Source: Climacium dendroides (lineage: Eukaryota > Streptophyta > Bryopsida > Hypnales > Climaciaceae). Taken from it: a DNA stretch of 64,000 nt. Below the pieces are notes generated by a model that searched no databases, was not told where the DNA came from, and was given only the letters and a program-made list of their open reading frames with translations. Below are positions 5,746-59,080 of the stretch, in pieces. The DNA lies in contig OX467088.1 in assembly GCA_950106755.1 (NCBI GenBank), positions 9,780,001 through 9,844,000 of the forward strand, in the 5' to 3' direction. Each line of letters begins with the position of its first letter. Within the stretch, counting starts at the first letter, position 1. The position numbers and the translations under genes were made by a program.

Positions 5746-6393
5746 TACAAAAAAGTTGGACCCTATAAGGGGCTGCATCCCAATATTAAAAATGACTCAC
5801 TACTTCTCACTTTGAGGACATTCTTTTGTAATGATAACAATACTTGTCATTTTTTCCAAGAAAGGGCAGCCCATGATCTCAGTGATTGTGTGGTAGCGAT
5901 TAGGTTGAGGGACGGGCAGCATAATCATGACTTGTCGTAGTCGTGTCCTTGTGGAGTTTAGGCGCGGTAAAATTGGCGCGAGATGTATGACCTGGCAGAT
6001 GTATCCCGCCTAATGGTTATCTTGCATTCAGCTGAACTTGCAACATGTATCCTAATTACAATTGTAGCTTTGAAATTCTTCATTCCCGCCTTCAAATTTT
6101 GTACAGGTTGGGTGTCGATGCTGATACTGCACTGTTGTCGATGTTCATTGCTGCGTGCAAGCACAACACAACTACACAGCTCGATCAGATTACTTGCACA
6201 GCTCAATCGATAGCTCGATTGATAGCGAGATAGGCAGAAAGCGGGAGAGACATCGTCGTCCCGACGTGGACATCCACCAATCTGGACTCAGTAATTGTCC
6301 AGTACAGTAATTGTTGAGGTTCAGGTTATTGAGGTGATGTGTTTTGTGAGGAAGAGTACGTGTAGCTACTTAGTGTAGTTTATATTGAGATCC

Positions 6394-9300
6394 ATGGCAC
6401 TTGGGGATGTTACGAATGTGCCACCTTATAAAGCACAGGTAACGATTGATGGCAAGTATGTACCACTAATTCAGAGAGGAAAATTCCTGCATGAACAAGT
6501 GTCAAAGTTGTGCTTCTCGGAGAAGAGAAAGGCTGGCCTCACTGCCATAGATCTTTGGATGGACGGGTCTTTGTATCCAAATGACCCTAGAACAGGCAAG
6601 CGTCCAAAGTTGAATTGCTTGAAGGATTTGGTAGAATTCGTCGGGGAGGGAGAGAATGGCATGCTTGGATACGTCAAGAGTCTAGTATCAGATAGTGCTG
6701 GAGGCTACCAAAGGGACGTGGACCGCTATGTTGTAGAAATTTTGTTTCTAAAGGAGTATGTGTCAAACTTGCAAAGTCAAATTGACTTACAATCATCGAG
6801 GCTCTTTGATGTTCCGAATTTGCAGTCAATTATTGCGAATTTAGAGCTGCAAAAGACTTCAACTAAGGATCGCATGCAACAAATGCAATTAGAGCTTGAT
6901 GCTCAAATAGTCGTGAGAGAAGATATGAGAGTGGCTGTAATTGCAGTAAGAGAGGGGCATGTAATTGAAAAAAAAAATCTGATAGAGATTCATAATGCTA
7001 AACTGCAATCTGTTAGATTAGACCTCTACAAAACAAAATCAACTCTCTCCCGCCTCACTCAGAAAATGAATCAACTGCAAAATACTACGTTCGGCTATCG
7101 CAGCCAAATTCGGCAACGAAGAGATCTGTCTTCCTTGTCACAAAAAGGAGGACACGCGAAGTTTGTACGGAGATTGGCTCGTACAATTGTAGGACCACAA
7201 ACAGCTAGAGCTGTACATGAACGAAACATGATTGAGGGTAGAACTCAACGATTGCATGGCGACGAATCAGCCCAAGAAGAGAGCGGTCGTGTTTTTGCTA
7301 GCTTGCTGTCGAGAACTGAAGTTAGTACGCTGTTGCAAGATCCGAAAATGATTCCAGTCGGAGAAAAACTTGTAAATCAGTACTTTGATAAAATTGGAGA
7401 GATCATGGGCCCAGAAAACGTTCTTGAAATATGTGACCGAAATAGTATAATACAAAATGGTTACGCTGCTTACCACAAAAAATTCAGTAGCGCTGTGAAG
7501 GTCGTAGGGCGTGGAAACCTACGGGTTAGTTGCATGGCAAATCCGCATCAGGTTACATTATTATGAAGGGACTTGAATTCAAGATTGGAGGACTACATCA
7601 GTTCACATTCTCATATTGAGAATGAGTTCATTATCGCACAGCCAGCAAAGTCTAAGACCAAAGTTCCAACTAAGGTTGTCTTGTCCTCTCGGAATTCATT
7701 CTTTGTGGACATAGAGAAAGTTCAGCAAACAATGGTCCGTCTTTACAAGATTACTACAGCAGGTATTATACTACTCTTCTACTGTTTTGAAATGGATACG
7801 TATTGAATTCTCTAAGTTAGGGTTTGTTATGAAAGCTAGACCTCATTTTGGATGCGTGTTTTATTGCTTTGCAGAAGTACAGGGAGATCCTCTCATCTTC
7901 GTACTCAAGCTTGATGAAGCAGAAATTATCCATGCACAGAAATTGAAAAGAGTGTCGATTACCTTAATGAATCGTGCCCTAGATCCATCAATTTCTCCCA
8001 CTGATCCGAAGTACTTTTCCGTTCAGTTTGAACGAGAGGTATGGCTTGCAGCTTTTCAAGTACCAAAAGAATGTCACGAGGTTCTTGAATGGGTTTTCAA
8101 GCAAACAACATTTCCAGAGTTGATCCGAGCTCAAGAATCTGGGCAACTACTGATAGTTTCAGATGTAGGGAGACTTCAAAGTGCGCTGGCACTTAGCAGT
8201 TGACTTAAAAACAATAAAATGCATGTACGGGTTACAACATGGAGCCAACTGCAAATATACTTGCATTTATTGTCTACAGGAGAGAACAAAGCTTGCCATT
8301 GTGACCCAAGCTCAAGCAACTACATCAATGATAAGAAGATCAAATTCATGGAATGGAGGCCTCTTCTCGTCAAGTGTGTATGAGAAACCGATTGTTGGTG
8401 CTCGGACTCTTATGCGTTGGAAACCAATTTTCTTGATCCCATTAGACAGAGTCCATATATGCACTCTACATGCTATGAACCGAATAGTTGAGAAGATTTT
8501 ACATCTTCACTTCATGTTTATTTGGACAATTCGTGATAAAACCATACAGGCTGCTGCAATTAACGACATGCAGAAAGTTATATCTGCCATTGGAATGCAT
8601 GGCGGTAACGTGATTATCTTCAAGGATGCAGAATTGTCAGGAAAATCAAATAGCGTTCCTAACAAACCTAGTCTCTCTGGAGCCAATTGCGCTAAACTCT
8701 TTAAGCCAAGTACCTTGCCTGGAGGATCCAACACTGTTTGGAAAGACGTAGTGGCAGCTACACACAATTTCTTGGACAATGGAGACGCAAAGAAAAGTCA
8801 GATGGACATGTGGGAGGCCCTACAAGATCTTCGACAGTACTTCACAAAATTGACTTTGACGAACGATCAAAGACACGAATACCGAGCTAAAGCCCAGAAG
8901 TGGGGTCGGCTTTTTGTCACTTGCTTCGGTGAACATCGCATAACTCAATACATGGTAGATACAATCTTTCCTTTCTCATCCTGCTTTGAATTCAAAGTTG
9001 GTGTTTTTTTCTTCTCTCTGCAGCTACAGGTACTAAAACTTATCTACCGTATGTACTCCAGCATATCATCGTCAGACACGCTCCATTTTTTGTTGAAGAA
9101 TACGGATCGCTCTCCGTGTGGTCCTGCCAAGGGATGGAGAATTCTCATCACGCTACCAAAGCTGCCTACCAGCGTCATACCCAGCATGCAGGTGGTCAAC
9201 AACAAACAAAGAGTGCATTGCATCAAACCTTTGAACATTGGTATCGTATTATAGCCCATCGTTTCAGAAACATTGAAGAAGTAGAAAAACAACCATCAGC

Positions 9301-20200: not shown

Positions 20201-21330
20201 AATCGGTTATCTAAGACATACCTTCCTGCCGTAGGATCTGGGGTCGTTGGGAGGCGCTCCAACGACAAAATGACGCAGCACAGAAGTACAGTACTCCACA
20301 GGCAAGAGTAACCTCACATGCACGAGAACAGTGATTCGTCTTATCCTCCTTGTGTACATAAACTCACAGGACGTAGCTGCGGAGACGCCATAGCTCGAGA
20401 GTCGGCAACCAACAGATGCGCAGAGAGGGCAAGAGCAAGAAGAGTTGTAATTTAGAGGCTGGGGCCCGAGTTCCTTTTCTGTCTGCTTGAATCAATGGCT
20501 ATGTGTCTTGAGCATTGACAGAGTGTCAAATGTGGACCATCTTTTCAATTAATAGATGGAACTTCTGTGTGCAATAGAGCGCCGCGAAATCCGAGCTGCA
20601 AGAAGATCGAGCAAACTCATCTGGAGTCTGAGACAGACCGGCTGCAACACCAAGTAAATCAAAGCGGGGACAAGGGCCGTCTAGGAGCCTGGAACGAGGG
20701 TGGGGCATGCAGCTGTGGCCAGGAGTGTGGACGTGGTGCTGGTTGCAGCCGCCCGACGTGAAGAAGAATCTTGTACGCGGACGACGTGAGGAAGAGGACT
20801 GTTTCCTAGTAGTACGTATTTTAGAGTTGTACAAGCTCTAAAATTACTTATACGTCCAAATTGCTCCGAGAAACTGAGTACAATGGTTTCTTGCGGACAC
20901 CAGCAGAGCGTAAGACCTTCAAAATGAGATGATTTTTTTTCTCCAGACGTACATATTCAACCCAATATTTATTTCAGCACTCAAAGCACTTCTAAATTCT
21001 TCCAATTTTCTGCTGCACACACCTGCAGAAACACCACCCAAATTGAGAATTCTCGGGGCAGAACCGCCTGATCGATGCACACAAGGTGTCAAGGTACCCC
21101 ACATGCTTGGTTGGAGAGGGACCTTCCGCCCCCGCCTGCAGACGAATCTATTGCCTACCGAACACTATTCAATCAACAGGTCCCCTCTGATGAAGTATTC
21201 CCTTACAAGGTAGCTTGGCCGTCGCCTCACAGGGAAGGAATATATTCGGTCCAACCTAGCAAGGAAATGCTCCTCAATGTTGAGGGTCTTTATAAGTCTC
21301 CCAAAAGAAAGGAGTTCAGTAGGTGAGACC
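20201..21330. other. Gene-like GC island without a resolvable gene
   Basis: GC rises to about half. Frames of 60-102 codons exist on both strands (for example 20526-20834 minus; 21075-21326 plus, which includes VPSDEVFPYKVAW). None is recognisable. It could be a captured gene fragment, a non-coding RNA, or exons of a gene I cannot assemble. Confidence 0.35.
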
Positions 21331-21688
21331 AATTCCCCACACTTACTAAATTTATCATTTTATCCAATAAGTGTTTAACAAAATTGTAGGAATCCACTTG
21401 CAATCTTTGTCTAAAGTAGCCAGTAATTCTGTCCAAAGTTTCAACCACTCTCTAGTTGAAGTGAAAGCATAGATATTTAGAATAGACAAGTCACTTGCTA
21501 AGAGACTCTTTACATGTATCGGTGGGTGGGAGGAGTCAATAGGGTTGAAATATAGAAAGCACTTTTATGCTGCTTCTACATACACGTAGAACTCCCTCTC
21601 CTACTTCCACGCTTACTGATCATTGGTGACACTGTTCTTGTCTTTTAGTTGCTTTCTTTGTCCACCGAGTGAGTATGTAAAGAGGCCC
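21331..21688. other. Gene-free spacer
   Basis: Nothing recognisable. Confidence 0.4.
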
Positions 21689-21697
21689 CAAGTGTCC

Positions 21698-21849
21698 ATG
21701 GTTGTCATAATGCACAAGTTACTATTCATTTTTCGTCTTGTAGGACAAGTTACTATTCATCAAATGTACTTCTTAAGTACATTTGATGAATAGTAACTCG
21801 TCCTACAAGACGAAAAATGAATAGTAACTTGTGCATTATGACAACCATG
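21698..21849. mobile_element. Foldback MITE with 9-bp target duplication (Mutator-like)
   Basis: Arms 21697-21771 and 21775-21849 are inverted copies with one mismatch in 75 bp and a 3-nt loop. The element is flanked by a direct repeat CAAGTGTCC at 21689-21697 and 21850-21858. A 9-bp duplication with long terminal inverted repeats fits Mutator-like (MULE) non-autonomous elements. Each arm contains an internal repeat of ACAAGTTACTATTCAT. If transcribed it would fold into a long near-perfect hairpin. Confidence 0.8.
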
Positions 21850-22071
21850 CAAGTGTCCCACCTATTCTCACCCACTGAACTTTCCCGCATGGAGAAAATC
21901 CAAAGTTTACCACCATGTGTTGTATAATAGAAAAGATCCACATGCATACTTCACCTTCTCCAACCCCTTCCTCACCCATATTATAGCCATAGCCAATTGA
22001 TGCTTCTTTGCATAGAAAGTTGACCCATGGTCAAATGAACTGCCCAAACTTCATTAAATTATCACTTCTAA

Positions 22072-23784
22072 GGGCCAGTTTATACTGTGCCTAAGGCTGG
22101 ATGGAAGGCCGGCCGGATTTGCCTTCAATCCGGCCTTCAATCCGGCCCAAGTTTTTCCATCCGGCCCCAATTAATGTAAACCCCTTGGGCCAGATTCTAG
22201 GGCCAAATTTCCAATTCATGTACTCTTGAATTTTCTCAATGCTCAATTAAAAAAAAATATAAATATGCATGTTTATCTTTCTCTTCTTTTCTTTTTAATT
22301 AAAAACAATTTTTTTTCCTTTTTTTTCCTATATATTTTATTTCTAAAATAAAATAGAAATTTATTTATTAATTTACTTAAAAATTAAGAAAATTAATGTT
22401 TTGGTTTTCTTCTTATATAGAACATGCATTTGTAATCAAGATGTTTAATGCTAAAACATAGGAACTTCATTGTAGTCACTTAGATGATGATTTTTCTTTA
22501 AAATTAAAAAAGTAAATTCATAAGGGAGTTTGCTCTAAAAACATCCATGCTCTGAGAGTGATCATGATGGAGAGGTACATTTTGCTTTATTGAATGTACT
22601 AGCACATTTGAGGACATGGTCACTTTTAGTAACCGTTGCCTTTCAACTTTAAAAAATTCATAACTAATTACACAAAGATCTAAAAAATATGAAACAAATC
22701 AAGTCACCAAAAAAATATGAGGATAAAGGACCTAGCAAGCATAATCCCAATCAATTTATGGCTTTTCAAAATCTACTCTACAATTTTTTAAATGAATCTT
22801 TAATGTGATTTTTTCTTCAAGATCTAGTGTATTTGAGGCTCATTTCCAAAAGCCCTCAACACTATGAAAGTCAAGATTGTGATGGACACTCTTGTACAAA
22901 ATCTTGAATAAAAAAATTATGATCAATTATTTTGAGAATTGGATTTTTGATGCTAAAATTTTAGACTTTAAAAAAAGACTTTAATATTTATATAAACTAC
23001 TAAGAATAGCAACTTGGTTGAGTTTTATTAAACTTCAAAGTATTGTTCACACCAAAATTTTGTGCCTTGGATATTTAGAAATTAAGAACAACTCTATCAA
23101 ATAAACATGTACCAAATTCCAAATAAAAATAAACATCTTGTGTTGAGTCAGTTAAAAATGATTGAACCAAATAAGCTTTAAAATCTCATATTCAATTATG
23201 AATAATTTAATAGAACATCTTATCAAACAAACAAGATTGTATATATTATATTATAATAAGTTCATATATTATATTATAACAAATCTATATATTATTTTAT
23301 AATAAGTTTATATAATGTATTAAAAACTGTGTATACTTCCATTCCAGAGCTCCCAACCCACTATTCCCAATTTCAAATTGAAATATTGGCAACAGATCAA
23401 GCTCTAAAAATTTAGCAATGTATATTGGTGGAAGTTTTTTGAGCTCACAATTAATAAGCACGCACCAAAATAGAAAACAAAAAAATTCACATTCATAGAT
23501 GATAGAGATTTGTACAATCCAACGGAGGAGCTCAATTTGCCCCCAATCCGGCCTTAGATGGGAGTTCGGGCCACCAAAAACCTCGTCCCGATTGCTTCCC
23601 TTGGGCCAGATGGTTTGGCGCCAAAACCATGCCACCTAAGGTGACACATAGGATGAGTTGTAGTTCCATCCGCCCCCAAGTATAAACGCCTTGGGCTGGA
23701 TTTGAAGAAATTGAGCACTCCTATTGGTTCAAACTTGGAGAGTTCCAGCCGGCCCTCAATCCGGCCCCAAGTATAAACTAGCCC
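22072..23784. mobile_element. PIF/Harbinger-like non-autonomous element, 1.7 kb
   Basis: The left terminus GGGCCAGTTTATACT (22072-22086) and the right terminus in reverse complement GGGCTAGTTTATACT match at 14 of 15 positions, flanked by TAA at 22069-22071 and 23785-23787. TAA/TTA duplication and a GGGC-starting end are typical of Harbinger/Tourist elements. Subterminal regions at both ends are rich in CCGGCC/CAATCCGG words. The interior has no transposase; about 22730-23110 is a copy of the TTAA-type repeat seen at 5283-5435, apparently nested. Confidence 0.7.
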
Positions 23785-23787
23785 TAA

Positions 23788-24816
23788 GTTTATGTTCTTG
23801 AAAGCAAAGAACATTCACACTAGATTTTAGGGACAATAGTAATTCTTGATTTTATCTACCTTCAATGGGCAATTTGTACCTTGAAAGTTTTGTGTGAGTA
23901 TTGTCACTTTCATATCAAAGATTTTGAGAGGGGTGAAACAACAGTGGCCCTCTAATGGCCTCTCTATCTGGCGTACCCCACTGATGAGGAACCTCCACCC
24001 TCTGATCTGCTGGGGGTATTGCGCTGTGCCAAAAGTAGAGAAGACCTAAGCGACCTCTACATTGTATCTTTGGACCCGTGAGACGCCCCAGTTGAGGCGT
24101 GAGAAACCCACCATTTGGTTGACTCTACACCATTCCATGAATTCAAAGCGACTTGCATATGCTCTGGAACTCTGGAAGAGAGTCAAACGAACCTGATGCA
24201 TTAGGTGGAGTTCGGGGCGTAGAGTCGTAGATGAGGTGGAAACTGGTAACAATCTCTCCACCCCATTGAACTCGGTTCTGATTCTATTCAACCCGTCTAT
24301 CGATATGCCCTCTATGCTGACTAAATGAATGGATTCGGAAGGGGTAAATGCTACCCCGAGTTTTTGATTCCCGCCGGCCGCCCTTCGGTTGAGCTTGATG
24401 TTTTTTTTTCCTTTTTCATAGATGAAGATGGCCAAGGACCTGATGAGACGTTCGAAACCACCCCAACTTTTGATTGGAAAACTACCATAGATGGTGTCTC
24501 CGGTCTGTTCATTGGGACTTGCAGCCGCTTGGACTTCCCAGGAACTTATTTAAAACCTCGCATGACCTTCTCCCACCCGTTCCACTCGTACTCCGGAGTG
24601 GTAGGTGATCGTAAACCTTCTTCTAACGTGTCGCAAGAATCAGTCATGACACCTTTACCTTTAGCAATTAGAATAGAAAGACCACCAACCTTCTTTGATA
24701 ACTGAGCTCCCTCTCCATTCGGCGCGCCAGCATTCACCGAACCGGAGTTGCTCCGTGCTCCGCCACTGATCCCGTCCCTTTGTGCAATCAGTTCCACCTG
24801 CACCGGTTTATCTAGT
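23788..24816 (-). other. Mid-GC segment downstream of the cyclase, origin unknown
   Basis: From about 23940 the sequence is about half GC, unlike the AT-rich flank at 23788-23940. Overlapping frames are open on the minus strand (24546-24857, 103 codons; 24046-24435, 129 codons) and on the plus strand (24325-24705, 126 codons). Phrases such as SPTTPEYEWNGWEKVM look protein-like, but no family is recognised. An organellar insert, a retroelement piece or DNA transferred with the cyclase are all possible. Confidence 0.4.
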
Positions 24817-26793
24817 TTACAATAAAGTGACTTTGCTGACCACGCGACTATTTCCACTCCTCAGGTTACGATAGCGCGCCATCGCCCATAGAGGGAAGAG
24901 CCGAGGATATCCGTGATATCGCAGATAGAGAACACCCGGAAATCCTGTGCCCATAAATCGCTGCTCAGACCATAGACCATCTTTGCGCTGAGTTTGAGCG
25001 AGATATGCGACGCCGCGTCCGCAAGCTGCATGTTCCACCTCTCCCACCGCCATGAGAGCAAGCAAGGCCCATGCCGTCTGTGTCGCCGTGCTCGGTGCAG
25101 GCTCGTAGCCCCGATAGTCGAGCTTGTAGCTCGTTGCATCCTCGCCCCAGCCGCCGTCCGGGTTCTGGATGGAAAGCAGCCAATCGCGGGCCTCTCTCAC
25201 CATCGAATCGCTCGTGTCGACGCCCGCAGCGTTGAGTGAACACAGCACCGACCAGGTGCCGTAGATGTAGTTCATGCCCCAGCGGCCGAACCAGCTTCCG
25301 TCGGGTAACTGATTGCGACGCAACCATTTGATTGCACGCCGAATGGACTCTGACGTTGTGGGACGTTCGCCAAGTTGTGCAAGTAGTGAAAGACAGCGTC
25401 CGGTCAAATCCCCCGTCGGCGGATCGAGCATCGCACTGTGATCGGCGAACGGGATGTTGTTGAGGTAGTGATATGTATTATCGGCATTGAACGCGCCAAA
25501 GCCACCGTCCTCGCTCTGTAGTCCGATGATCCATTCGCTTGCGCGATCAATTGATTCGTCGAATGTCTTGCCACGGTCGCTGCGTACGCGATCCATCGCC
25601 ATCGCGACAACGGCCGTGTCGTCGAGATCGGGATAGTGCGCATTGTTGTACTGGAACGCCCAGCCGCCGGGCCGCACATTCGGACGCTGCACGATCCAGT
25701 CGCCTTTCACGTCGAGAATCTGGAGCGGCTTGAGCCAATCGAGCCCGCGGTTTGCTGCCGCGATTGCTTTCTCGCCGCCGGCTTCAAGCAGCGCATGCGC
25801 GACCAAGCCGGTGTCCCACACCGGCGAGACGCACGGCTGGCAGTAGGCCTCGTCGTTCTTGACGACGAGCAGCTTGTCGAGCGAGGCACGCGCGATCTTG
25901 CGGTCTGGATGATCCGGCGGAAACCCAAGCACCGCATACATCTTAACGGAATTTTCCATCGCGGGGTATACTGCGCCAAGCCCGTCGATGCCGTTGAGAC
26001 GCTCGGTGACCCACGCAACGCACTTGTCGATGGAGCGCTTGCGCAAATCTTTCGGCATGTAGGGCTCAAGCGCACGTAGGACGATGTCGATGATGCAAAA
26101 GCCGATGAACCAGGACCATTTCTGGTGCGGCGCCTTCACCGGCGCGCCGACTGTCTTGGGGTCCTCATGGAACAGCTCGTCAATCGTGACGCCACGCGGA
26201 TTGATTGCTTTAGGCTTGAGCGCCTGAAGCACGAGTAGCGGGACGATCACGGTGCGTGCCCAGAAGGAGATCTTGTCGATGTGGAACGGGAACCAGCGCG
26301 GCAGAAGCATGATCTCGACCGGCATCACCGGCACGCTCTTCCACGGGATCACGCCATAGAGCGACAGCTGCACGCGCGTAAACACATTCGATTTGACCGC
26401 ACCACCTCGCGCGAGAATCGTTTCGCGTGCCAGCTTCATGTGCAGTGCGTTGACGTCTTCGCCGATCATCTTGAGCGCGAAGTAAGCCTTCACGCTCGAG
26501 CTCATGTTGAAGTCGCCTTCGTGGACCAGCGGCCAGCCGCCATGCGCGCCCTGGATGCGGCGCAGGTAGACGCCGATCTTGCGCTCCAGTTCGAGGTCAG
26601 GCGTCTCCCCTAAGTAGTGCACCATCAGCACGTATTCGGCGGGTAGGGAGGCGTCGGTTTCGAGCTCGTAGACCCAGTGCCCGTCCGGCTTCTGCTCTGC
26701 GAGGATGGCGTCGGTAGCGGCGCGGACATGCCCCTCGAGCGAACTCTCAATGGCGGTGCGCGCCGGGGCCGGCGCTGTGAAAGTCTCGGTCAT
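24817..26793 (-). CDS. shc: Squalene-hopene cyclase, alphaproteobacterial type, intronless
   Basis: 658 residues with no intron, stop or frameshift. The enzyme protonates squalene and cyclises it to hopene/hopanol (triterpene cyclase, GH-independent class II type); bacterial homologues are monotopic membrane proteins. The catalytic acid motif DLDDTAV is at residues 389-395 (bases 25629-25609). Six QW-type repeats occur: QKPDGHW (34), QGAHGGW (81), QSEDGGF (426), QLPDGSW (495), QNPDGGW (543), QRKDGLW (602). GGWAF (376-380) and GTGFPG (615-620) are also present. Phrases such as SNVFTR, MPVEIMLLPRWFPFH and YLRYHGY are those of Rhizobiales enzymes rather than of AacSHC. Codons end mostly in G/C, in sharp contrast to the surroundings. 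ATG has A at -3 and no clear Shine-Dalgarno. The last residues (VVSKVTLL) depart from the usual bacterial C-terminus. No hpn genes are adjacent. Residue 622 is Leu where AacSHC has Phe605. Confidence 0.95.
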   Translation of the reverse strand: MTETFTAPAPARTAIESSLEGHVRAATDAILAEQKPDGHWVYELETDASLPAEYVLMVHYLGETPDLELERKIGVYLRRIQGAHGGWPLVHEGDFNMSSSVKAYFALKMIGEDVNALHMKLARETILARGGAVKSNVFTRVQLSLYGVIPWKSVPVMPVEIMLLPRWFPFHIDKISFWARTVIVPLLVLQALKPKAINPRGVTIDELFHEDPKTVGAPVKAPHQKWSWFIGFCIIDIVLRALEPYMPKDLRKRSIDKCVAWVTERLNGIDGLGAVYPAMENSVKMYAVLGFPPDHPDRKIARASLDKLLVVKNDEAYCQPCVSPVWDTGLVAHALLEAGGEKAIAAANRGLDWLKPLQILDVKGDWIVQRPNVRPGGWAFQYNNAHYPDLDDTAVVAMAMDRVRSDRGKTFDESIDRASEWIIGLQSEDGGFGAFNADNTYHYLNNIPFADHSAMLDPPTGDLTGRCLSLLAQLGERPTTSESIRRAIKWLRRNQLPDGSWFGRWGMNYIYGTWSVLCSLNAAGVDTSDSMVREARDWLLSIQNPDGGWGEDATSYKLDYRGYEPAPSTATQTAWALLALMAVGEVEHAACGRGVAYLAQTQRKDGLWSEQRFMGTGFPGVLYLRYHGYPRLFPLWAMARYRNLRSGNSRVVSKVTLL

Positions 26794-27508
26794 CTTAAAG
26801 TTTCTGTTGCTTAAGAATGCTGCACAAATTTGGCTGCTGTGTTGCCGGACCGAATGGCACCTTCGCTGGTCGCCGGCCAGTCACCAAGGTCTATCCCAGT
26901 GGGGCGATGGAGCTTAGATTACGAAAGGCACCAGGTAAAGTCGCCAATCAACAGGTGCAGTTGTTTCGCGATTAGATTGCGAGTGATCGATTCACGAGAA
27001 TTGGCAATTCTAATTTCACGAAGGCTACTGACAATCACAGATGGTTGTCCATGGTGAGTCAAAGAATCCATCCGAACTTTCAGAGGCTTCAAGACTCCAT
27101 ACATATGGATCCCATTTGTGCTGCTCTGCAAGATCCACGTGATCATGATGTCAGAAAGAAATATTGAATAACACCCATAGCATGTACAACCTCGATGTAC
27201 GAAACATGTGCAGGCTAAGCTTATAAGGAAAGGTTACACGTGCAGTGCTTGAACTCAGATAGCAGGCCGAGGGCTACGACCAATACGCACCTCACAGGCT
27301 ACTTGTACTATGCAAGTCAAAAATCATACCTGTGGCCACGAGTGCAAGCAAAAATAAGGTAGTCTGCTCTTAAAAACGACCATTTAAGACTACCCAACTC
27401 ATCATTGACAGTAATAAATATTTCAAGCAACATGTCACCGTTTCCTAGATAGAAGTCGCATTTAGAACGTAGTCGCTTTTCAGCAGACTACTTTAGTTCT
27501 AAGCAGTA
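26794..27508 (-). promoter_or_regulatory. Upstream region of the cyclase with two G-boxes
   Basis: No gene. Palindromic CACGTG G-boxes, binding sites for plant bZIP/bHLH factors, occur at 27136-27141 and 27237-27242, about 345 and 445 bp upstream of the cyclase ATG. The first 150 bp or so upstream remain GC-rich and could still be transferred DNA. No convincing TATA box was picked out. Promoter function is inference. Confidence 0.35.
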
Positions 27509-27821
27509 CACTAAATAGTATATTTAGTGTTAGCAACACTATTTACAAACCATAACACTAAATATCATTAACCCTATTAAAGTAAATAACATTAAATCTG
27601 ATTTCTAACACTAAATGTATTCTATGGTAAATCTGAAATCTGAAAAGGTTTACATTTAGTATTAGAACACATTAAGAACATAGGAAGGTGAACCTGAAGA
27701 TGAAGGTGGCACATTCAAGTTTAATATTACACTAATTCCTCCAAAGTTGAAATTTAGTGTTATGTGGAGTAGGGTGGTAATTACACTACATGTAATCCAA
27801 CACTAAATATACTATTTAGTG
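27509..27821. mobile_element. pogo-family MITE (TA-flanked)
   Basis: A perfect 28-bp inverted repeat at 27504-27531 and 27799-27826 includes TA on both sides (27507-27508 and 27822-27823). The element proper starts CACTAAATAGTATATTTAGTG and is 313 bp. The outer CACTAAWTA and the repeated internal AACACTAAAT words resemble the ends and 3' subterminal region of the 1277-4857 element, so this is probably a deletion derivative of that family. It lies about 0.7 kb upstream of the cyclase start. Confidence 0.8.
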
Positions 27822-27823
27822 TA

Positions 27824-28680
27824 CTGTAGGTGTTGATTTCACCACCCTGGATTCTCGTGCACTCGGAAGGGCTTGCCTGGTCACAGTCCCATGTGCAGCT
27901 AGCTTCGGCTTCAATGGTTTTGCCATCTGGACAAATCCGAAGACAAATCACAACAAGTGCTGCACAGTAAGGGATTCATGTGCAAGTTCGGAGTGGGGAG
28001 GCAGGATGAGTTCGACGAAATCTGCGTGGTCATGACCATCGCCGACCCAGAGTGAAACCCAAATAGGATAAAATCATAGCAAGATCGAGCTTCAAGGGCA
28101 CGGTCCAAGCCGAGCGATGCAAGCCATACCAGCACAGAAATCCATGAGGCCAAGCGATCCAAAACTGAAGTCTGGAACTGAAGTCGGTGGCCTCGTGCTG
28201 GTCGCCAAAGGAAAATAGTATGCTTGTATTGTACATATTAGCACTTTTGGCTCTTTGTTATTTTAAAGCTTCATTTTGAAATGATCAATTTAATTGATCA
28301 AATTGTGGAAAGCATCTTTATGTCATTGGAGGAAATCTTTATATCATTGAGTGAAACATATTGCATGTGTTGATTCAAAAAAATGATAGTTGAACATATA
28401 AACTCTTTGAAACTAATAAAAAAAAAAAAGGCCTAGATTTTGTTATATTATTGTTTAACACTAGAAGGATGGAGAGGATGTTTGGTGAGATGGTCAACCA
28501 AGCTTTGTACATATTGAAAAATGGGTGATTTTCATCCATTTGGGGGGGCAACTGTATTGATGCTATATTAACATTAATGAATTAAGTTCTAAACATTTTA
28601 GTTGTTTTTAAAATTTTATATGAGGTAGTTTATTAAAAGTGGTACACTATTTAGTGTAGTTCAATACTTTGAACTTCATC
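27824..28680. other. GC-rich patch then AT-rich spacer
   Basis: 27835-28230 is about half GC with a short plus-strand frame (SRALGRACLVTVPC-like) and minus-strand frames of 68-83 codons, none recognised. 28231-28680 is AT-rich and empty apart from a small palindrome TACACTATTTAGTGTA at about 28652. Confidence 0.35.
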
Positions 28681-28686
28681 CCTTAA

Positions 28687-29423
28687 CCCCTAATGACCTA
28701 AGCGAACATTTCTAGGTCGATGTCCCTCTTTTTGAACTACTTGTTCTCACATTTTGAGTTTTTTACAAATCAAAATTAATTCTAAAAAATAGACTAGGTT
28801 GTGAATCCTATGGTCATAGTTTCATCAAATTTTGAGTTCAACTCGACCTTGTAGAATTTTTCAAAGTTAAATGATGCAATATAGTTTAGAATTTATTTTT
28901 TGGGGTTTTGGATTGGTTGTGGACTGAAAATTTAGTCAACCAACCAATGTGATTCTTGCCCACCTCATAAAACAACAAATCCAAGGAATTCAAGGAGAAG
29001 ACAAGTGTCCCATTCTTTTTTTTCTTACAAACACTACTCTCATTACAATGACCACCATCCATTGCAAGCTCTGCCAAGAATTGAAAAATGCTTAGAATGT
29101 GTGAAATTTGTACATGTACATTCTAAACTCTCTTATCTTTCATTGAGCACAAAAGGGGATCATTTCAAAATGTTCTTACAAAGATATGCTCCTTCAAAGT
29201 TTGTTGCCTTGTATTTCCATTGACCGAAATAAAACTTCAAACTTAAATATCTCCTAAATAGTGTTGTCAAATAATTTGAAATTTGAAGTGCTCATTTGCA
29301 ATGTGAAATTCAAGATCCTATCCATTCTATTCAATCTCAAGAAAAAATTGAGCAAAAAAATTGCTCAAATTCTTGACAATTTTGGCCCATTTTGAAAGTA
29401 CAACCCCCTTGGGTCATTAGGGG
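28687..29423. mobile_element. TTAA-flanked MITE (piggyBac-like ends), 737 bp
   Basis: TTAA at 28683-28686 is followed by CCCCTAATGACC. The right end is GGTCATTAGGGG followed by TTAA at 29424-29427. The 12-bp termini are perfect inverted repeats, and similarity continues for several more bases (YAAGSG). The interior is AT-rich and non-coding. This is the best-preserved member of the TTAA family in the window. Confidence 0.75.
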
Positions 29424-29427
29424 TTAA

Positions 29428-30103
29428 GATTTGATATTGACATTGATTACAATTTCTTTGACTTTTTAGCTAAACTAACAAAATGAAGTGTGGATTCTAT
29501 TCTACTAGAGAATTTTGATTATTTCCTTAAAATAACCATTTTACATAACATTGTTAACAAGGCATATTGCTTCCCTTGTGTAGGAGGTATAATCCCTCCC
29601 TAGATGCATGGGAAGGATTTAGTTATAATGTAAAGAAAGCAATTGGCTAGTTCAAAGTCATTGTTGATCAAACTTTGTGAGGAACTGTCAAGTTTGAGTA
29701 AAGCCACGGACTCCGTCCTTTAGGGGTTAATAGGGTTTAGAATGTTTAGTATTCAAAGCAAAATACATCAACGTTACAAAATCACTGGTCACAGGTCCAC
29801 TGGGCGTAACATGCACCCAGCTAAAAATACCGAATGAAAACATCCCTCTTGGATTCCAATAGACTGCGGTGGCCAGTATTATCTCCCAACATTCTCTCAT
29901 ATTGAACAGTGAATATCTTACAAAGAGTTATTCTCAAAATGGTGCTCACTTCTAATTTCTACTTCTAAATTTCACAAAAAGACTAGTACATAAGAGGTGT
30001 TGTTATTGTTGTCGTCGTCGTCGTCTTCTCTCCTGGAATATGATGAGAGACTTCAGCGTGAAGTACAGAACGGAGATGCTTGCATCCATGTGGGCACACA
30101 CAT
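29428..30103. other. Intergenic, 3' side of TEX2-like gene
   Basis: AT-rich with no gene. A TTTAGGGG plus TTAA word at 29720-29730 marks another end of the TTAA-type repeat. A GTCGTC microsatellite lies at about 30008-30025, probably in the 3' untranslated region of the gene ending at 30104. Confidence 0.5.
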
Positions 30104-33100
30104 CTACCCGCTACCAGAGTGACGAGAGTGACGAGAAGAGCCACCTTCAGGAGCCTCACTTCTCTTCTCCCGCAATCTCTCCAGAGCAATGCGACGCTTC
30201 TCCTCAAGCTTGGTGAACCCCTTCCTCCCAAAGGAGATCACCTTGGAACGGCGTGATGATGCACTTGAATCCGAGTCTTTTGACAGATCTGCCTTGGGAT
30301 GTTCCAGGTTGCCAACCTGCAACTATAACGGGACAAAGCTTGAGGGCCAGTGTTCGTATGGAAACTGAAAGCCTACACAAGGTCGCCAAACAAACTTACG
30401 TAGAAAAGTTTAACCCATTAAGAGCCCTAACAACCAATAGTGCATGCTTCATATCCATTCGAGTTAAATATAAATCACTTAAGAATCTGCAAGGAAAGTA
30501 ATAGAATAAACCAATAAAGAAGAAATCATACCCTGCATGTTTTTACCGATAGAAATATGTCTTCAAAGTTGGTAAAATCAACTCTTAGCTTATGAAGTGG
30601 ACTCTCTATTCTTAGCTTCCGCACTTCAGGGTTACAGATCACTTTAAACTGGTCACAGAAGATTCCTCATTCTGCCACACATACTAATTCATTGGTACCC
30701 CTATTCCATGGGTAGAGAGAAAGAACCTGTTGAGACGGATTCTGTGACTCGATTTGCGAAGCTGAGCCCTCTGAGAGTTGCAAGAGATCTCCATCCAAGG
30801 GTCTGGATGTTTCCACGTCAGATGCCCCTGCGTCAAATTCACTACTCGTATCCAACGGCTTGTTCCTGCTGTAGTCGTCGTCATCAAGCAAAGGCGTCGT
30901 CAAGTCGGACTCATTATCCTCCCGTATTGACGGAGGTGCTGATGGTCGCGAAGGAAACGAATGCTCCAAGCTTGACTGTTCTGAGTTGGCAGCAAACCGT
31001 GAAGGATTCCTCGTAGTTCCAGAAGTTGAAAGACTGCTTTGAGAGAGTGGAGAAGAAGGCGGAGGCATCTGCATTACGGGGCCATATGGAGAACCCGGTG
31101 TTTGGGGAGGTAAAGAGGCTGGTGAGCCATGACCGACGCTCTCAGACGGAGACTCTGAAATCTGAGGTTTACTCTGTCCATTACGAGAAGAAAGTAATTG
31201 ACCACTTTTGCCATTCTCCTCGGCGGTATTAGGTTGTACGCCCGGATTGGGTTTGGGGACTTGACGTTCACTTTCAGAGATTTGTAGAGCCGAGAACGCA
31301 ACAGGAATTTCGCTTTGTTGGATCCAGTCATCTTTCTCAGCCATCATCCAATGGAGAAAGAGATCTTGGCTATATGGCGTAACGATGGACTCCCGAATTT
31401 GTACCTGCATGGAGAAGCCATGAAACATCCAGTATAGAAATAATCACAAAAGAGCTCATGCCCAATCAATCATAATCATCAAATTGAGAAAAGATTTCCC
31501 TCTCCACATCATGAAATATATTGTGTTCAACAAGTTGGCCAGGTACTCTATATAAGTTTTCCGGTTTATACAAATCTCCAGTTTCAGAAGAATGAAAGCA
31601 CGAGAACAAACCAAGTCGACTTAGCTGTGAATAAACAAACAGTGAGACTCGAATAGTACCTTGATTTGATTGGCAATAAAGCTACCTAAAGGCCCGCTGC
31701 TGAAACGGTGATCACCAATACCGGGCTCTGGTGCCAGATCAATGTTGGGCATTTCCTTGAAAGAAAACCATATTCGATCAGAAGGAGGTGCTCTCAAACA
31801 AATTCTGCAAGTTCCCTTCACAGAGACCAGCCTGATTTTCAAAAGAAGAGGCACCTGCTCGTTCACACCCAATCAAAAAAACAGAATGTAAAATCAGCCT
31901 TTCTAAGAAACTATTGGAAATTAAAAATAGAGCAACATCCACCACGAGCAGAAGGAAGGCACACATGATGAAGATTTCCACAGACCTGAGAAACCTGATC
32001 AGCAACACGAGATACCATGGACTTCACTGAGTTGATCCACCCTCCCATTCTACTACTGTCATCACCTGCCAACAGTGATAGGATCGCTTGCGTAAAGAAA
32101 GAATGGCAGCCGGACGAAAGCAAGATTGCACTACCACTAGAGCAACAGCAAAATGCCACAAAACGCTAACCTTACCACGATTTCCGCAAAGAGGTGTGCA
32201 CTTTAAAACAGAACTTTTGGTACCTGATTTAGTTTTTTTGCTGACAGCTGCTTGTCTACCCTCCGTCACTGCGGGAGACGCTTCTGCGGTCTCGACATCC
32301 TCAATGCCTGATACAATGGCCACAGCAGCGGCCTGTGCTGCCCCAGGCTCTGCCGTTTGCGAAGCCACTTTCTCTTGTGCAATTTGATCTCGCACATCTA
32401 CTCGCGTCTCAATTGTGATGAAGCCTCCACCATGCCACTCCATGTCGACTTCCAGAGCCAGAGCCCCTGCGGAGTCCGCGGGCAGCATACGGAGTGCTGT
32501 TGCGAAAGGAGGATCTTTTCCAAGATCAAGCTCTTTGATTGTAATCGATTTGATGTAGCTGGGAGTCTTTATTTTTGATATTAGCCTCTGAAGAATTTGC
32601 ATACACCAGAGTAAGGCTGGGAGACCAAGGCTTTATGAGTACAATCATCTATGGAGCAAGCAGCGACAAGAACAAAACATTTTAGATGATAGGAAGAACA
32701 TACCTGAAAATGCTTCTGTACCCATGCAACGCGGGTGTCGCTATGGTAGAAGTCGAAAAACAGTCTCCCAACGAGCATATTCAAACAGAGTAGTCCTTGA
32801 TCGATCTCCTTTTCAACACTTTCTTTGTCAGGGCCGTGCATCAGGGTAGCTGAAAGCACCTCATCGGATTCTTTCCTGTCTTTCTGAGTTGTTGCCAGTG
32901 CTGACTTTTCTCCATCGCTGTCACTGGATGCAGATTCACTTCGAGAAATTCGGTCATTGCTCACGTGGCTTGAGTGGGAACCGTTCTTACTACCCTCGGG
33001 GTCATCAGAGACAGCATTTTCCTTCCCCTTCCTACTACTGCCTTCAATGTGCGCTTGAGATTGTCTTCGGGTGAAGTTCGCATATTCCTCCTCTGCATTT

Positions 33101-52793: not shown

Positions 52794-55700
52794 TCAATAG
52801 TAATTCCCATAGTAATACCCTGTTTGAGCTGGCGGTGCTTGAGGAGCCGTAGGCAGGCTGTATGCTGCATCCTGAGCATAACCAGTTTGTGCTTTAGGAT
52901 AGGATTGAATTACGTCCTGCCATTCACATAAACAACCATGAATAAAAGATTTACACAAATCTAAAACATAAGAAGGAACTTCAAAGTCCCAAGCACCCAA
53001 CAGACGCTACTCAACTACTGACCACCAATCACCCCTCAAGCCATGACCACCTCAACAAGTCTACAAAGGCTCATACCGTGTGCAACATGCATGTAATGAT
53101 GCAATGACCACCCTCACCATCCACCTGAGCTCCAACCGTTCACCTCCTGCTAACAATCCAATCATGCCAGCCAGATACTCGATCAACACGAAGGACCCAT
53201 TCCCATCCAGCACGCATACAACACATTTCAGACAATACAGGCCATTCTGATACCATAATTCTTTCATTTAAAGCTCCAAAATACCTGAGGGGGATAGCCC
53301 TGCCCATAACCACCATAGGGGGGTTGTTGTGGAACAGGAGCTTGCTGCTGGGGCGGTCCATATGAAGCATAACCTCCATATCCGGCATAGGCACCCTGCA
53401 TCAAGAATATATATTTACCAAAATGTGTACATAGATGACCCACTCATCTCAAACCTGCCACTGCTAATCAACACGATATCACATAGTGAGTACGAGACAA
53501 TATTCCTTATTTTCTATTACTTCATCCAAAGCACGGGAAAGATCATTGGACCTGCTGTGCACCATAGCCTTGATTCCATTGCTGTGGCTGCACGGGTGGG
53601 GTCGGCTGCTGTGGCGCTTGCTGCCATCCTTGAGACTGCTGCCATCCTTGAGGCTGCTGAGCATAAGCATTCCACTGCCCACCATTATTGTAGGCGGGGG
53701 GTCCCGCTGGCACTGCTGTAGCTGTTGCCCCAATATACGGCTTATGCACTTTTGCACGATCAGGCATAGAGCTATCCATTGAAGGTCTCTTTTTAGATTC
53801 TACAACACTCTTCTGAGAAGGAAAATATTCCCTGTGTCGTGCTTCAGCTTTCTGGATGTCCTCAACAGAGCCAAAGCTATCAACAAACTGCAAAATCACA
53901 AAGACCATGCGACTCTGATTAGAAGATATTCATAGAAAATACTAAACACGAATACGCAGACCACTGCTTTACGAGACAGCTATCAAGACATGTTGGTTGT
54001 TTCTCTCAGTCAAATGAAAGGGAAACCACTTTAAGGCACTTGCACACTGCACTTAACCACCCATTCAGCAAAAAACTGAGTGAAGGAAGGGAGAGTTAAA
54101 ATCAAAGTAGAAACAAGAGAAATAGATAGGGTCCAAATCATTACCTCAAGACATATGCTTGACAGTTCTTCTCTATCAACTGCTGAGAGAACGGAAGCCC
54201 CTTCTACTTTGGACGGAATAATTGCTCGGTCCATCAAGTTGTTGACATATTCAACTTGAAGCTTCCCAGGTGAGTGATTGGCCTCAAAATGGATGAAAGC
54301 CTGAGAAAATGCAAGTGGACGTCAGATTAAAATGCACATGCAGCTTCTTTTATTGCCAGCGAACTGGCTAGCCAAAGCGAAAGTACAAGATGCACATCAG
54401 AGTCCTCAGTTCCAACAAGCTTACACTTCCTATGACGACTGACTTGCATTTTACTACTCCCTACAAATGAATGAGCAAGCAGAAAAAACGAAATTGTACC
54501 TCCCACAGGATTTTGCTGGTGGAAAGACTATCCAAGGCAGCGGTATACACTTCACGTGCATTCTCTGTGCTTTTCATCACCTTTAAGAAAACAAACAGAG
54601 TCGTTACATTAAGAATTGTCTGAAATTGGTTTCTATCTAAGAAGCAAAGTATCTCAGGTGCTATTGTGACCTCCAATAGACATGCTTGAAATTCAGATTT
54701 GATCACAAATCATGGACAAGAACTCACTTGATCAAGGAACCGAGCATACTGAATGTACAAAACTGCAAGTGCTCGCGGATCCTCCTTGATTTTCTCTATC
54801 TGTAGTGCGGAGTCAAATATAGAACAAGCGGCTTCCACATTTCCCTGCAGACAATCTTTCAATGTCAGATAAAGCATTCAAATGAAACCACCACTACTTC
54901 AACACTACATTCATTGAAACAGTAATATCAAGTATTAGTAGTGACAAATTTAACCTTCACTTATATGACATGGAAGACAATCACGCCATAAACAGTTGTG
55001 CAGAACAATGATGCCAAAAACTAAGTGAAACAACTTAGACAGACCATGAACGACGAATGATCAGAAGTGCAACCTGACGCTTCTCGAAATTGGCATGCTT
55101 AATAATAGCTTCCAATAGACCCGGTTCAAGGTCATTCCTCAGCACTTCGTATGAAGCACGTGCCCCCTTAATATCACCCTGATATTCCCTGTATCTTGCT
55201 GCAAAAATATGAATTTCTGGGCGTCGCTTGACGAAAGTCACAGTTGCCCGGTGAAGAGCATCAAGTGCAAGCTCTGCCTTTCCGTCCACATTCATGCGCT
55301 GGACATACCGGACCCAATACTCTGGATAGTTTGCACATGCAATCAAGCACCGTTCGTACAACTTGATAGTCTTCTCAACGCCTCCTTCCTTCTCAACAAA
55401 GTCCAGATATTTGTGCCAATTTGCAAGCTGTGCCTCATCTAGAGGTCTGACGTGAAAGTAAGGTCTACGGATGGCAACCTCAAAATCTCTTATCTTTGCG
55501 TCCCACTCTTTAGCGGCTTTGAAGAACGCGTCTCGCACTCCAATATACTTCTCTAACTCGGCTCCAGTTGCCTCCACTGCTGTCTCTGCAGGTTTCTCAG
55601 GCTCAGTCACACCATCAGCCTCAGGAACAGTAGTAGTTTCATCAATTTCTGTAGCTTGATCGTCCTTCACAGGCGTAGAGGCTTTCGCTAGGACTGCTGC

Positions 55701-58466
55701 CTGAGACTCTTCTGGAGTCATCAGTTCGGTCAGGGGATGGCTGTATGCGAACTGCTTAAAACTGGCAAAAGGAAAAACCCGAAGACGGCCGTCAAAAGAA
55801 AGTCTTCCGATGAAAATCATATGCGGCAAGGCTTTTCATTCACATCAAAGCGAGAATCAGAACATCATGCTTTGTAACAGTTTTGAAAATGGAGCGGAAT
55901 TCAAATGCTTCTAGTAAGTCATAGAATACGAACCTGGCAAGATATCGGTCAAGTTGTTGTAGAGGAATTTGCAATATTTGGGTATAGATCTGAGCAACGC
56001 GACTCCACTCTGAACGCGCAAGTTCGAACTCCAAATACTTGTCCCACAGAAGGTGTGAAAGATAGTCCGTCCCCACAAACGCCACTCCCCGCTCAAATAT
56101 CCTGAAAAAAAGCACAGGACGATCATAAAATTCCTGGAAAGAAAACCCCACCCCTTTCAAGCTGACTTACTTTGATTTAGATTAGGCGATCAGAGCAGGA
56201 AAAGGGCCGAGGTGCGAAGTAAGAACTTTCAGTGAAACTTGCTTTTCAGACTTCCAAATAGAAGCACAAATGCTCTGCATTTACCTTCCCGCACAACCAC
56301 ACTACGTCCGGACATGTAGCGGCAATCAGAGTCCTCTCTTTGCCCTCAAACTGGACCGGTAATCTTCCACAGCAGCATTTGGACGTAAGAATTTTGCATA
56401 CGCGCATGGCATGGTACCCTCAACCATTGTCAAGAAGTGAGGGATGTAACAATATAAGAACACATAGAAGCACAGCCACTTGCTTTATGTCTATGTTTTA
56501 TGTTACGAAGTAAGAGCAGCATTAAAGCGAACTGTGAAAATCACACTGACGTTACAAGCGAAAATATATGTGGATTTCTTTTTCACAAAAGCGTACGGGT
56601 TTTCAGTTACGAGACGTCATCCTACGAAGTGGAAACTCAATGCTCCGCCAACATGAGACCATCTCTTTGCAGAGACAGCAAAAGAAGTGCAGGATGAAAA
56701 GCTGCAGCAAGACCAGACACAGGTCAGAAGACACAACACACATCAATTCGTTATTTACTAGAAGATGTAATAGACAAGACATCCAGAATTAAGGATGACC
56801 TGCGTCGCTGCAGGAATCAAAACACTAAGTGAGTGGTTGGATGGAAACTTCGAACATACCCACGGATTGAGTCAGGGTCTTCAAACTTCTCCATTGCATA
56901 AATGCCGTAGTTCATCCACATGTCCACGGAATAGGTCACTGCCTTCACAGCACGCTCATAGACTTCCACCACTTGCTCAGGAGATCCCAGCCTTGCTTCA
57001 TGATCGGCATACTTCTTCCAATAACCATAACATAGAGGAAACTCCGCCAAAAACGCATCATATGCTTTTTCGATTTTAGAAATGACCTCCTGCAAAATCG
57101 TAAGATCAATAACGTCAGAGACCAAAAGGACGACGAAAACTAGTTAAGTTGTTGGAGGAGTAACAATATTCAAATTGGAATAGAGGGCTCGCTCAACCAA
57201 GTAAATGCGAGGAGCATATACGTAAATTAATGCTAGAGATATTGTGAAGAAAGAGGACAGACTACTCATAACAGATGTGCAAAACGTCAAAGACAGAACC
57301 CACAGGGTCCAAAGAGAATCTGAAGGAAAATCACCAATGTAAGATAGCCAGCAAGTCCTCTTACATTATTTTCACGAATTTCCAGCGAGTACGTATCAAC
57401 CACAATTAGTAATTATTAGGTCATTTTCTGTGAGACCATAAGCATTATGCAGCAAAACAAATGTGAGCTGAATTTTACAGAAAGAGGATTACCAATTTCT
57501 CCGTCTCATTGATGAGTATAGTCCATGAATTGAAGTCCGCAGCATTCTCTTTGACAACACTCCATAGCTTCTCCTCTTCAGGGGTGAGTGCTGACAGAAA
57601 CAATACAGTGAAAGGATAAGCGCCTTCACTAGTGCAATTAAATCGCAGCCAGTGCGCAGAAATCTTGAAATAACCCGATACTTTCTAGACTCAAGCAAAA
57701 AAAGAGGAGAAACTAGAGCTACAGTTCCATCACCAATATACACGTTTCGCATGTGGAAACAAATAATTCACAATCATTCCTTACACAAAACGTCACTATC
57801 ATCGTCTAGACACAATGTGACATATCACTGCGGGTAACCATAGGCGCCTTCATAGAGTACAGAGTAATCATCCAGTGTGCAGAAACAGATTTTTTAAAAA
57901 AAACTTAAACCTCTCAGGCTCGCTAGTAAAGGGAAAGAAAATTAAACTAAAACTGGCATTCCGAGCACGTCTCTCGCATCCCAAAACAAATCCACCCAAA
58001 ATCTCCACAAAAAGCTATCGCCGCCGTCCACTAGGCACAGCGTACCAAAACTCAAAGCACTAGAACGTAAGGCGTCTCCCGCATACTAATTAAACCTCAA
58101 AAGATGTAACAAAAAACTCGCTTTTCCCTCGACTCGCAGGTGAAGAGAAGAGAAGACATAATCAAACTGAAAGCTCCATCACGCTTCGCATCTCCAAACC
58201 AATGCATCAAAACTCTTTTCCATAAAACATCCACATAAAAGAAAAGAAGTACAAAAAACACAAAACATACCTTCGCGGTCCACAACGACGGGGGCTGCCT
58301 CTTCTACAGCCTGCCCCTGTTCCACACCCTCCGCCACATGATGTCCGTTCGCATTCCCCTCCACCGCAACAAACGTTGCCTCTTTCAACTCCATCACCGG
58401 AGCTTCCTGCATCACCTCGTCTAACTGAACTGGCGCGGCAACTTCCATCCCCACCTGATCTCCCAT
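52794..58466 (-). CDS. PRP39: PRP39-type U1 snRNP splicing factor, eleven exons
   Basis: Exons: 58466-58271, 57590-57493, 57089-56860, 56101-55934, 55761-55074, 54844-54728, 54580-54500, 54300-54145, 53887-53552, 53395-53285, 52916-52794. Frames and GT-AG sites agree throughout, giving 767 residues. PRP39 is a HAT-repeat (half-TPR) scaffold of the U1 snRNP that helps 5' splice-site choice in the nucleus; plant homologues affect flowering. HAT-type helices are evident from about residue 67 ([19 protein letters not shown], then [88 protein letters not shown]) to about 560. An acidic N-terminus (1-64) and a Gln/Gly/Tyr/Pro-rich tail (about 630-767, ending YYYGNYY) flank the repeats. The ATG at 58466 is the first in frame. 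Confidence 0.92.
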
Positions 58467-59080
58467 TCTCGACTCCTCTCAACAAACAACCAAACAATCA
58501 AACAACCCGCCGCTGCCGCCAAACCCCTGCACCTAGGGTTTCACGAATGGTACAGAGCCCCTTCCAAAGCGCAAAGGCTCGAATGCTGCGCCGAAACTTA
58601 CACTAAAACTTGAGAAGCAAGCAAGCAAGCAAGCTCTAGAGAAAGCTGCGAAGCAAAAGCAGGGCGTGATATGGGAAGTAAGCTTCGGGAGGCGGCAATT
58701 TTAGGTTTTATAAGAAGCAAGGAAGGGCGGGGTGGTCCATTGCACTCCAAGTTGCTGCAAAACGGGCGGGGTTACTGTCAACGTCAGGTTTTCTATTCTA
58801 GTTTCCGCTTCTTTTTCTTTTTCTTTGTGACTTTTCTTTATCTTTTGGCCTTCTCGTCGCTTCGAATGATACTACGGTACTCCTTTCTTACTTTACCACA
58901 CGTCTAAGTTAGTTAACTTTTCAAAAGCTGCACGTCTCATTGGCCTTTGGTGTTTGGGATTCTCAATGAAAGCTGTTTTTTTACCCCTTTTTTTTACTCA
59001 TTTTATCTTTTTTACTCATTTTACCCTTTCGAACTCTATTATTTTTACTTGTCAATGATCCTATGAATGTACCTTGTGAA
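58467..59080. promoter_or_regulatory. PRP39 upstream region
   Basis: 58467-58660 is mid-GC with an AAGC/AAGCA short tandem near 58612-58632, presumably leader and promoter. The region beyond is AT-rich. No second divergent gene is supported. Confidence 0.4.

Follow-up and report, generated by a model that had tools for sequence, protein, structure and literature searches.

Bacterial-type squalene-hopene cyclases (SHCs) have been described in several eukaryotes. According to the published description by Li et al. (2018; PMC6786969), the SHCs of ferns, mosses, and liverworts were acquired by horizontal gene transfer, with those of ferns being cyanobacterial in origin and those of bryophytes falling in other bacterial lineages. 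In the account given in PMC11976957, the SHC reaction is a single, oxygen-free step, and Shc1 of Schizosaccharomyces japonicus is reported to produce hopanoids and to permit growth without oxygen. The capture of SHCs by eukaryotes is already known. Among the papers listed in a search of largely open-access literature, some described the transfer of SHCs into plants or yeast, none described an array of alphaproteobacterial SHC genes in a moss, and squalene is not mentioned in the main text of PMC12448838 or PMC11228847. Here, an SHC gene of the moss Climacium was analyzed within a stretch of 64,000 nucleotides (the window, C37:9780001-9844000, C37 being the contig that carries it), and the copy in the window is called C37c. 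The new aspects are the donor lineage, an operon fossil, duplication with an active-site change, and the possible replacement of an older SHC.

The cyclase gene and its copies in the moss genome

The gene and its setting comprise the following features:
24817..26793, minus strand: intronless SHC open reading frame (ORF) of C37c, 658 amino acids, with an ATG start and without an internal stop
25618..25629, minus strand: DXDD catalytic motif of the C37c frame (DLDD, residues 389-392)
21085..31806, no strand assigned: moss DNA, parts of which recur, with gaps and at 85-99% identity, in the surroundings of the sister copies (C37 9.61 and 9.70-9.73 Mb)
53546..58478, minus strand: intron-bearing moss PRP39 gene, its protein pieced together from exons

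The preliminary description had claimed an intronless frame of 658 codons with complete DXDD and QW motifs, set in plant DNA. The frame was recovered at exactly the claimed coordinates, 24817-26793, and was assigned to the minus strand, the earlier account having given none; the alignment of C37c with bacterial SHCs covers its full length and gives no indication of an intron. The DXDD motif was confirmed, while the QW-type repeats were visible in the alignments without a count. The plant setting also held, with PRP39 exons, an alpha/beta-hydrolase gene, and a PH/SMP-domain gene in the window, and the best named matches of PRP39 were those of Physcomitrium patens (75%), Ceratodon purpureus (74%), Sphagnum (59%), and Riccia (58%), which marks the host as a moss that, given these identities, is probably a member of neither Physcomitrium nor Ceratodon. 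C37c matched both Pfam domains, SQHop_cyclase_N and SQHop_cyclase_C, near full length (393.4 and 472.3 bits), and its residues 17 to 645 matched the NCBIfam squalene--hopene cyclase model TIGR01507 with 736.6 bits against a cut-off of 431.1, a model with which the copy on contig C41 scored 743.2 bits. C37c lay below the cut-offs of the oxidosqualene cyclase (TIGR03463, 254 versus 851 bits) and tetrahymanol synthase (TIGR04277, 192.7 versus 500 bits) families. An AlphaFold2 model, built for the window copy only, had a mean pLDDT of 84.4 and displayed the two-domain alpha-toroid fold, with the Alicyclobacillus SHC 1sqc as its first PDB match (E value of 4.4e-44, TM 0.88/0.93). No TATA-like box was found in the 607 bp upstream of C37c, and no RNA family reached its gathering score in the window.

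A DNA search of the moss's own genome (412,615,100 bases in 123 contigs, with the six contigs examined being 28 to 48 Mb each) revealed copies of the gene at C37:9610315-9612291 (99%), C37:9704287-9706263 (99%), the window, and C41:2334543-2336497 (89%). All four frames are open, encoding 658 amino acids in each of the three C37 copies and 656 in the C41 copy, and the C41 product shares 85 to 86% amino acid identity with the C37 products. The four places, with 89 to 100% nucleotide identity, lie on contigs of 31.8 Mb (C37) and 28.6 Mb (C41), and the genes are integrated in the host chromosome with host flanks. The duplicated stretches include window positions 24788-27810, which correspond to C37:9610286-9613317 (98.3%), and 28337-31806, which occur at two other places (98.2 to 98.3%). 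Much of window positions 1-31806 recurs at C37 9.59-9.73 Mb with 85 to 99% identity, in pieces that come from different places. When the window was compared with 27 kb surrounding the C41 copy, homology was limited to 24839-26880 (89.1%), and the sole extra match was one of 198 bases (72.7%) between unrelated places. Approximately 340 bases (L082:1131-1471 and L083:1134-1471), which the window copy lacks, start 29 bases past the stop in C37a and C37b, the sister copies on this contig. The stretch that immediately follows the SHC gene, window positions 24000-24816, has a GC content of about 0.48 to 0.51, a CpG observed/expected ratio of 0.7 to 1.0, and overlapping ORFs with no Pfam match, and the three flanking ORFs within 24046-24860 likewise matched no Pfam family. 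On the plus strand, the ORFs at 6379-7566 and 8169-9254 (395 and 361 amino acids) matched no Pfam family above cut-off and are possibly a moss transposon.

Genome scans with PF13243 returned 10 places, namely, the four SHC genes, a relic on contig C35 with an internal TAA, and five exon-sized matches, and scans with PF13249 returned 9, namely, the four SHC genes, C35, and four exon-sized matches 3.8 to 4.1 kb from four of the PF13243 ones. No other intact SHC was found in the assembly by these six-frame profile scans, which scored 16 and 17 first-look candidates and which a divergent, intron-rich SHC could escape. The five exon-sized PF13243 matches (L113-L117, on C34, C41, C40, and twice on C3) are oxidosqualene cyclase-like and translate as SWG.CF.Y..WFG..GLVAAG ... 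GGWGESYLSC; we take them to be oxidosqualene cyclase exons, and they probably represent several cycloartenol-synthase-type genes. The SHC-like C35 locus (L092:3950-5800, minus strand; ~13.257-13.259 Mb) shows about 31% amino acid identity, with frame changes and stops; about 460 bases in its middle have no SHC match, and its SHC-type stretches lie in several frames. A 46-base match on C35 in the DNA search belongs to a gene different from the four SHC copies. The C35 locus is probably an older SHC that died, and since this broken relic is the only other SHC-like sequence found, the captured SHC may have replaced an older moss SHC.

Bacterial origin and the operon remnant

The best of the 120 listed homologues, from 7999 scored, is the metagenome protein P0001, which shares 84% amino acid identity with C37c and 84 to 85% with either moss type, and none of the first 55 of these 120 carries an organism name. 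Among 80 of 586 loci, the best named ones belong to an Alphaproteobacteria MAG (L001, 80%) and a Hyphomicrobiales MAG (L002, 78%). Phylogenetic analysis of 45 rows (40 of the 120 homologues, L001, and the four moss copies), with bootstrap values that had not fully settled, grouped the moss copies into one clade (100/99), which was sister to P0001 (99/87; 16-row set, 95/82) and lay among environmental SHCs, including L001. P0001 is presumably bacterial, as judged from its clade. A separate row set for the origin comparison consisted of 66 of the 120 homologues, seven loci, and the window copy. The preliminary claim of a horizontal transfer from an alphaproteobacterium into the plant nucleus, with the frame undamaged, is supported by the homologues, the bacterial loci, and the comparison with bacterial SHCs, in which the moss clade nests in environmental alphaproteobacterial SHCs. 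Viral carriage of the SHC was rejected because no related locus was present among the viral contigs.

Two features mark the ends of the bacterial piece in the window:
26794..26880, minus strand: degraded 3'-terminal remnant of a bacterial hpnE gene, just upstream of shc as in the donor-type operon; blastn matches to L001 and L002 reach 26880
24817..24838, minus strand: host-derived 3' end of the ORF, reading KVTLL-stop where the bacterial gene has FGM-stop; 24839 is the limit of homology with the C41 copy

In a blastn comparison of window positions 22-30 kb with 80 bacterial loci, the matches to L001 and L002 ran beyond the ATG and covered the end of the bacterial gene that lies upstream. At L001, the locus of the best named relative, hpnE precedes shc in the order HpnC-HpnD-HpnE-SHC-HpnG, with every Hpn model above its cut-off. 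A decaying hpnE scrap lies upstream of the ATG in each of the four copies and is longer at C41 (L087:5451-5636, minus strand), where it covers positions 398-430 of the 430 of the HpnE model TIGR03467 (E value of 2e-10; 40.6 bits, which for this fragment is less than the cut-off set for the whole protein) and 409-442 of the 443 of PF01593 (21.1 bits, cut-off 19.8). The hpnE 3' end kept beside shc indicates that the transfer carried contiguous bacterial DNA. Bacterial homology ends at the edges of the hpnE-shc piece, both with the 80 loci for window 22-30 kb and with six loci for the 27 kb around C41. The C41 gene retains the bacterial FGM at its end; in the C37 copies, homology breaks off shortly before this point, and host DNA supplies KVTLL-stop.

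The GC content of the C37c gene is 0.60, compared with 0.25 to 0.49 in the remaining kilobase bins of the window. Its GC3 is 0.73, compared with 0.80 to 0.88 in six bacterial relatives, and drops toward the 3' end. Between the C37 and C41 copies, dS is 0.28 to 0.29 and dN is 0.070 to 0.074, with a ratio of 0.24 to 0.26 (NG86, 0.257); among the C37 copies, dS is 0.013 to 0.019, with ratios of 0.32 to 0.49, and between the moss copies and L001 it is 0.74 to 0.80. Sequence-specific GC-to-AT and AT-to-GC changes numbered 50:12 in the window copy, 49:14 in C41, 44:36 in L001, and 60:41 in L002, and the pooled bias of the moss copies (99:26) differed from that of the two bacterial sequences (104:77; Fisher p 8e-5). 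The transfer had been described as recent and the composition as not ameliorated. Neither view was borne out, given the C37-C41 dS of 0.28, the lowered GC3 with its fall toward the 3' end, and the GC-to-AT bias of the moss-specific changes. Deamination of methylated cytosines was rejected as the source of change, as C-to-T changes were not clearly concentrated in CG or CHG (window copy, CG 12/268, CHG 2/93, and CHH 9/174; C41, CG 17/274, CHG 3/93, and CHH 8/176). A moss synonymous rate near 9e-9 per site and year would place the C37/C41 split at ~15 million years ago as an order of magnitude only.

Selection, active site, and alternative histories

In neutral simulations of 148 substitutions over both moss branches, 24 of 5000 draws had as few nonsynonymous changes as observed (4976 had more), and 0.18% of 5000 draws were without a stop. 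By branch, 17 of 5000 simulations were as low in nonsynonymous change as the window copy, a clear synonymous excess, and 816 of 5000 were as low as the C41 branch alone, which with an omega-like value of 0.67 displays no clear constraint. The branch counts are restricted to sites that are identical in the other sequences, a restriction that leaves fewer synonymous sites; the omega-like values of 0.38 to 0.67 are therefore not on the scale of the NG86 dN/dS of 0.26, a ratio that ignores transition bias. No frameshift occurs between the copies. The smaller number of nonsynonymous changes than under neutrality in the pairwise comparison suggests that the frames are kept largely by purifying selection. 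Across the window copy and 118 of the 120 homologues (two of <600 amino acids were dropped), 186 sites were identical in all 118 rows other than the window copy. The window copy departs at 10 of these, and no other row deviates as often in this comparison; one of the 10 sites falls within the tail of host origin. When only the 54 closest rows were considered, the window copy departed at 15 of 286 invariant sites, compared with 14 of 285 for P0048.

Three positions near the active site, given with their Alicyclobacillus SHC (AaSHC) numbers, are as follows:
24928..24930, minus strand: residue 622, AaSHC F605; L in all three C37 copies and F in C41 and five bacterial rows
25486..25488, minus strand: residue 436, AaSHC D421; N in all three C37 copies and D in C41 and the bacterial rows
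24934..24936, minus strand: residue 620, AaSHC 603; R to G, private to the window copy

E45, W169, W312, F365, the DXDD residues (D374/376/377), W489, F601, and Y609 (AaSHC numbering) are kept in all four copies. The DXDD motif together with the aromatic cation-stabilising set is complete in C41 only, F605 being L in the three C37 copies. Of 49 positions that we take to form the active-site region, six (41, 133, 220, 261, 421, and 605) distinguish the C37 copies jointly from all five bacterial rows, and three (220, 256, and 381) distinguish C41 from all of these rows. In addition, C37a carries Y612F, and at positions such as 93, 127, 262, 420, and 451 every moss and bacterial row departs from AaSHC in the same way. 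As described in PMC11273360, F365 and F605 are cation-pi residues, the weakening of which lowers the rate. The F605L change may shift the product of the C37 copies.

A history in which an operon fragment was transferred once into the moss nucleus and then duplicated, with the frames kept and their products likely being cyclases, is well favored. An alphaproteobacterial hopanoid-operon fragment, consisting of the hpnE 3' end and a complete shc, would have entered the nuclear genome once. The C41 copy has retained the start and stop of the bacterial gene as well as the named catalytic residues, and 2.04 kb of this insert or a sister copy would have reached C37, presumably in the direction from C41 to C37, where the last codons were lost and a host-encoded C terminus was gained. 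Copying of this piece together with the DNA around it would then have produced the three nearly identical genes. The four frames most likely encode enzymes that cyclise moss squalene. If the genes are expressed in the moss, as we infer, the DXDD motif would protonate squalene made for sterols, which would be cyclised to hopene or diplopterol; the C41 product would make hopene/diplopterol-type triterpenes from the moss's own squalene in one oxygen-free step, and the C37 copies with F605L would yield a shifted product mix. Hopene/diplopterol formation by SHC needs no further bacterial gene. The likely role would be membrane ordering or the provision of surface triterpenes; similar biology has been reported for Shc1 of S. 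japonicus (PMC11976957) and for ferns and mosses (PMC6786969).

Contamination or a chimeric assembly joining a bacterial contig to moss sequence, the main rival in the preliminary description, would fit the high GC content, the intronless frame, and the 84% amino acid identity to a metagenome protein. However, the four copies of 89 to 100% nucleotide identity spread over two contigs (28.6 and 31.8 Mb), the duplicated moss DNA around the C37 copies, and the decayed hpnE scrap effectively exclude it, and the end of bacterial homology at the edges of the hpnE-shc piece (80 loci for the window, six for C41) and the moss-side GC-to-AT bias also speak against it. Independent transfers of the C37 and C41 types from the same bacterial lineage are very improbable. 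Their mutual amino acid identity (85 to 86%) is hardly above that of either to P0001 (84 to 85%), and the flanks outside 24839-26880 are unmatched, bar one distant 198-base piece, but the moss copies are monophyletic (100/99), derived bases are common to both types, also in the decayed hpnE stretch, and dS is 0.28 to 0.29 between the types versus 0.74 to 0.80 to L001.

That the copies are the moss SHC of Li et al. (2018), inherited from the moss ancestor, has a similarly low probability. Bacterial-type SHCs are reported in mosses in the published description (PMC6786969), but no Physcomitrium, Ceratodon, or Sphagnum name occurs among the best 120 of 7999 homologues, most of which are unnamed rows, though the database returns the PRP39 of these mosses, and the genome also holds the different, broken SHC of C35, which is about 31% identical in amino acids. 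More weight, though still little, falls on a decaying or unexpressed insert whose frames drift without function. The changes at invariant sites in the window copy, F605L and the host-derived C terminus of the C37 copies, and the nonsignificant test of the C41 branch alone are consistent with such drift, whereas four frames remain intact despite a C37-C41 dS of 0.28, with a pairwise dN/dS of 0.26, no frameshift between copies, and the key catalytic residues kept.

The one-time transfer of an operon fragment can be extended, tentatively, to a history of serial capture, in which an earlier SHC died (C35) and a second, alphaproteobacterial SHC was taken up with part of its operon. The C41 gene would then be a hopene synthase, and the C37 array, with its changed active site (F605L, D421N, and the new C terminus), would make a different triterpene. 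If the genes work, plant-made hopanoids would affect the reading of hopanoids as bacterial markers in moss-rich soils and peat. The transfer of an operon fragment into a plant nucleus, with the donor's neighbor gene still readable, is an example of contiguous bacterial DNA transfer. In addition, with both gene types retained and diverged, what becomes of a captured enzyme (its retention, duplication, and active-site change and the loss of an older SHC) can be tested directly.

Comparison with known systems

The Climacium genes resemble the Hyphomicrobiales SHC (TIGR01507, hpnC-D-E-shc-G operon) in their full-length family match, the DXDD motif, the named catalytic residues, and hpnE directly upstream. 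However, they are nuclear and present in four copies, the other operon genes were not seen beside them, and three copies carry a host-derived C terminus together with F605L and D421N. Oxidosqualene cyclases, such as plant cycloartenol synthase, have the toroid fold in common with C37c, but C37c falls below TIGR03463 (254 versus 851 bits), and the moss has separate oxidosqualene cyclase-like exons. Like Shc1 of S. japonicus, the moss genes represent a bacterial SHC gained by a sterol-making eukaryote, although that host is a yeast and the donor suggested in the report is Acetobacter related (PMC11976957). The SHCs of Li et al. (2018) are likewise bacterial SHCs fixed in the genomes of seed-free plants; judged by their published description (PMC6786969), the Climacium genes are set apart in that they nest with environmental alphaproteobacteria and coexist with the broken SHC of C35.
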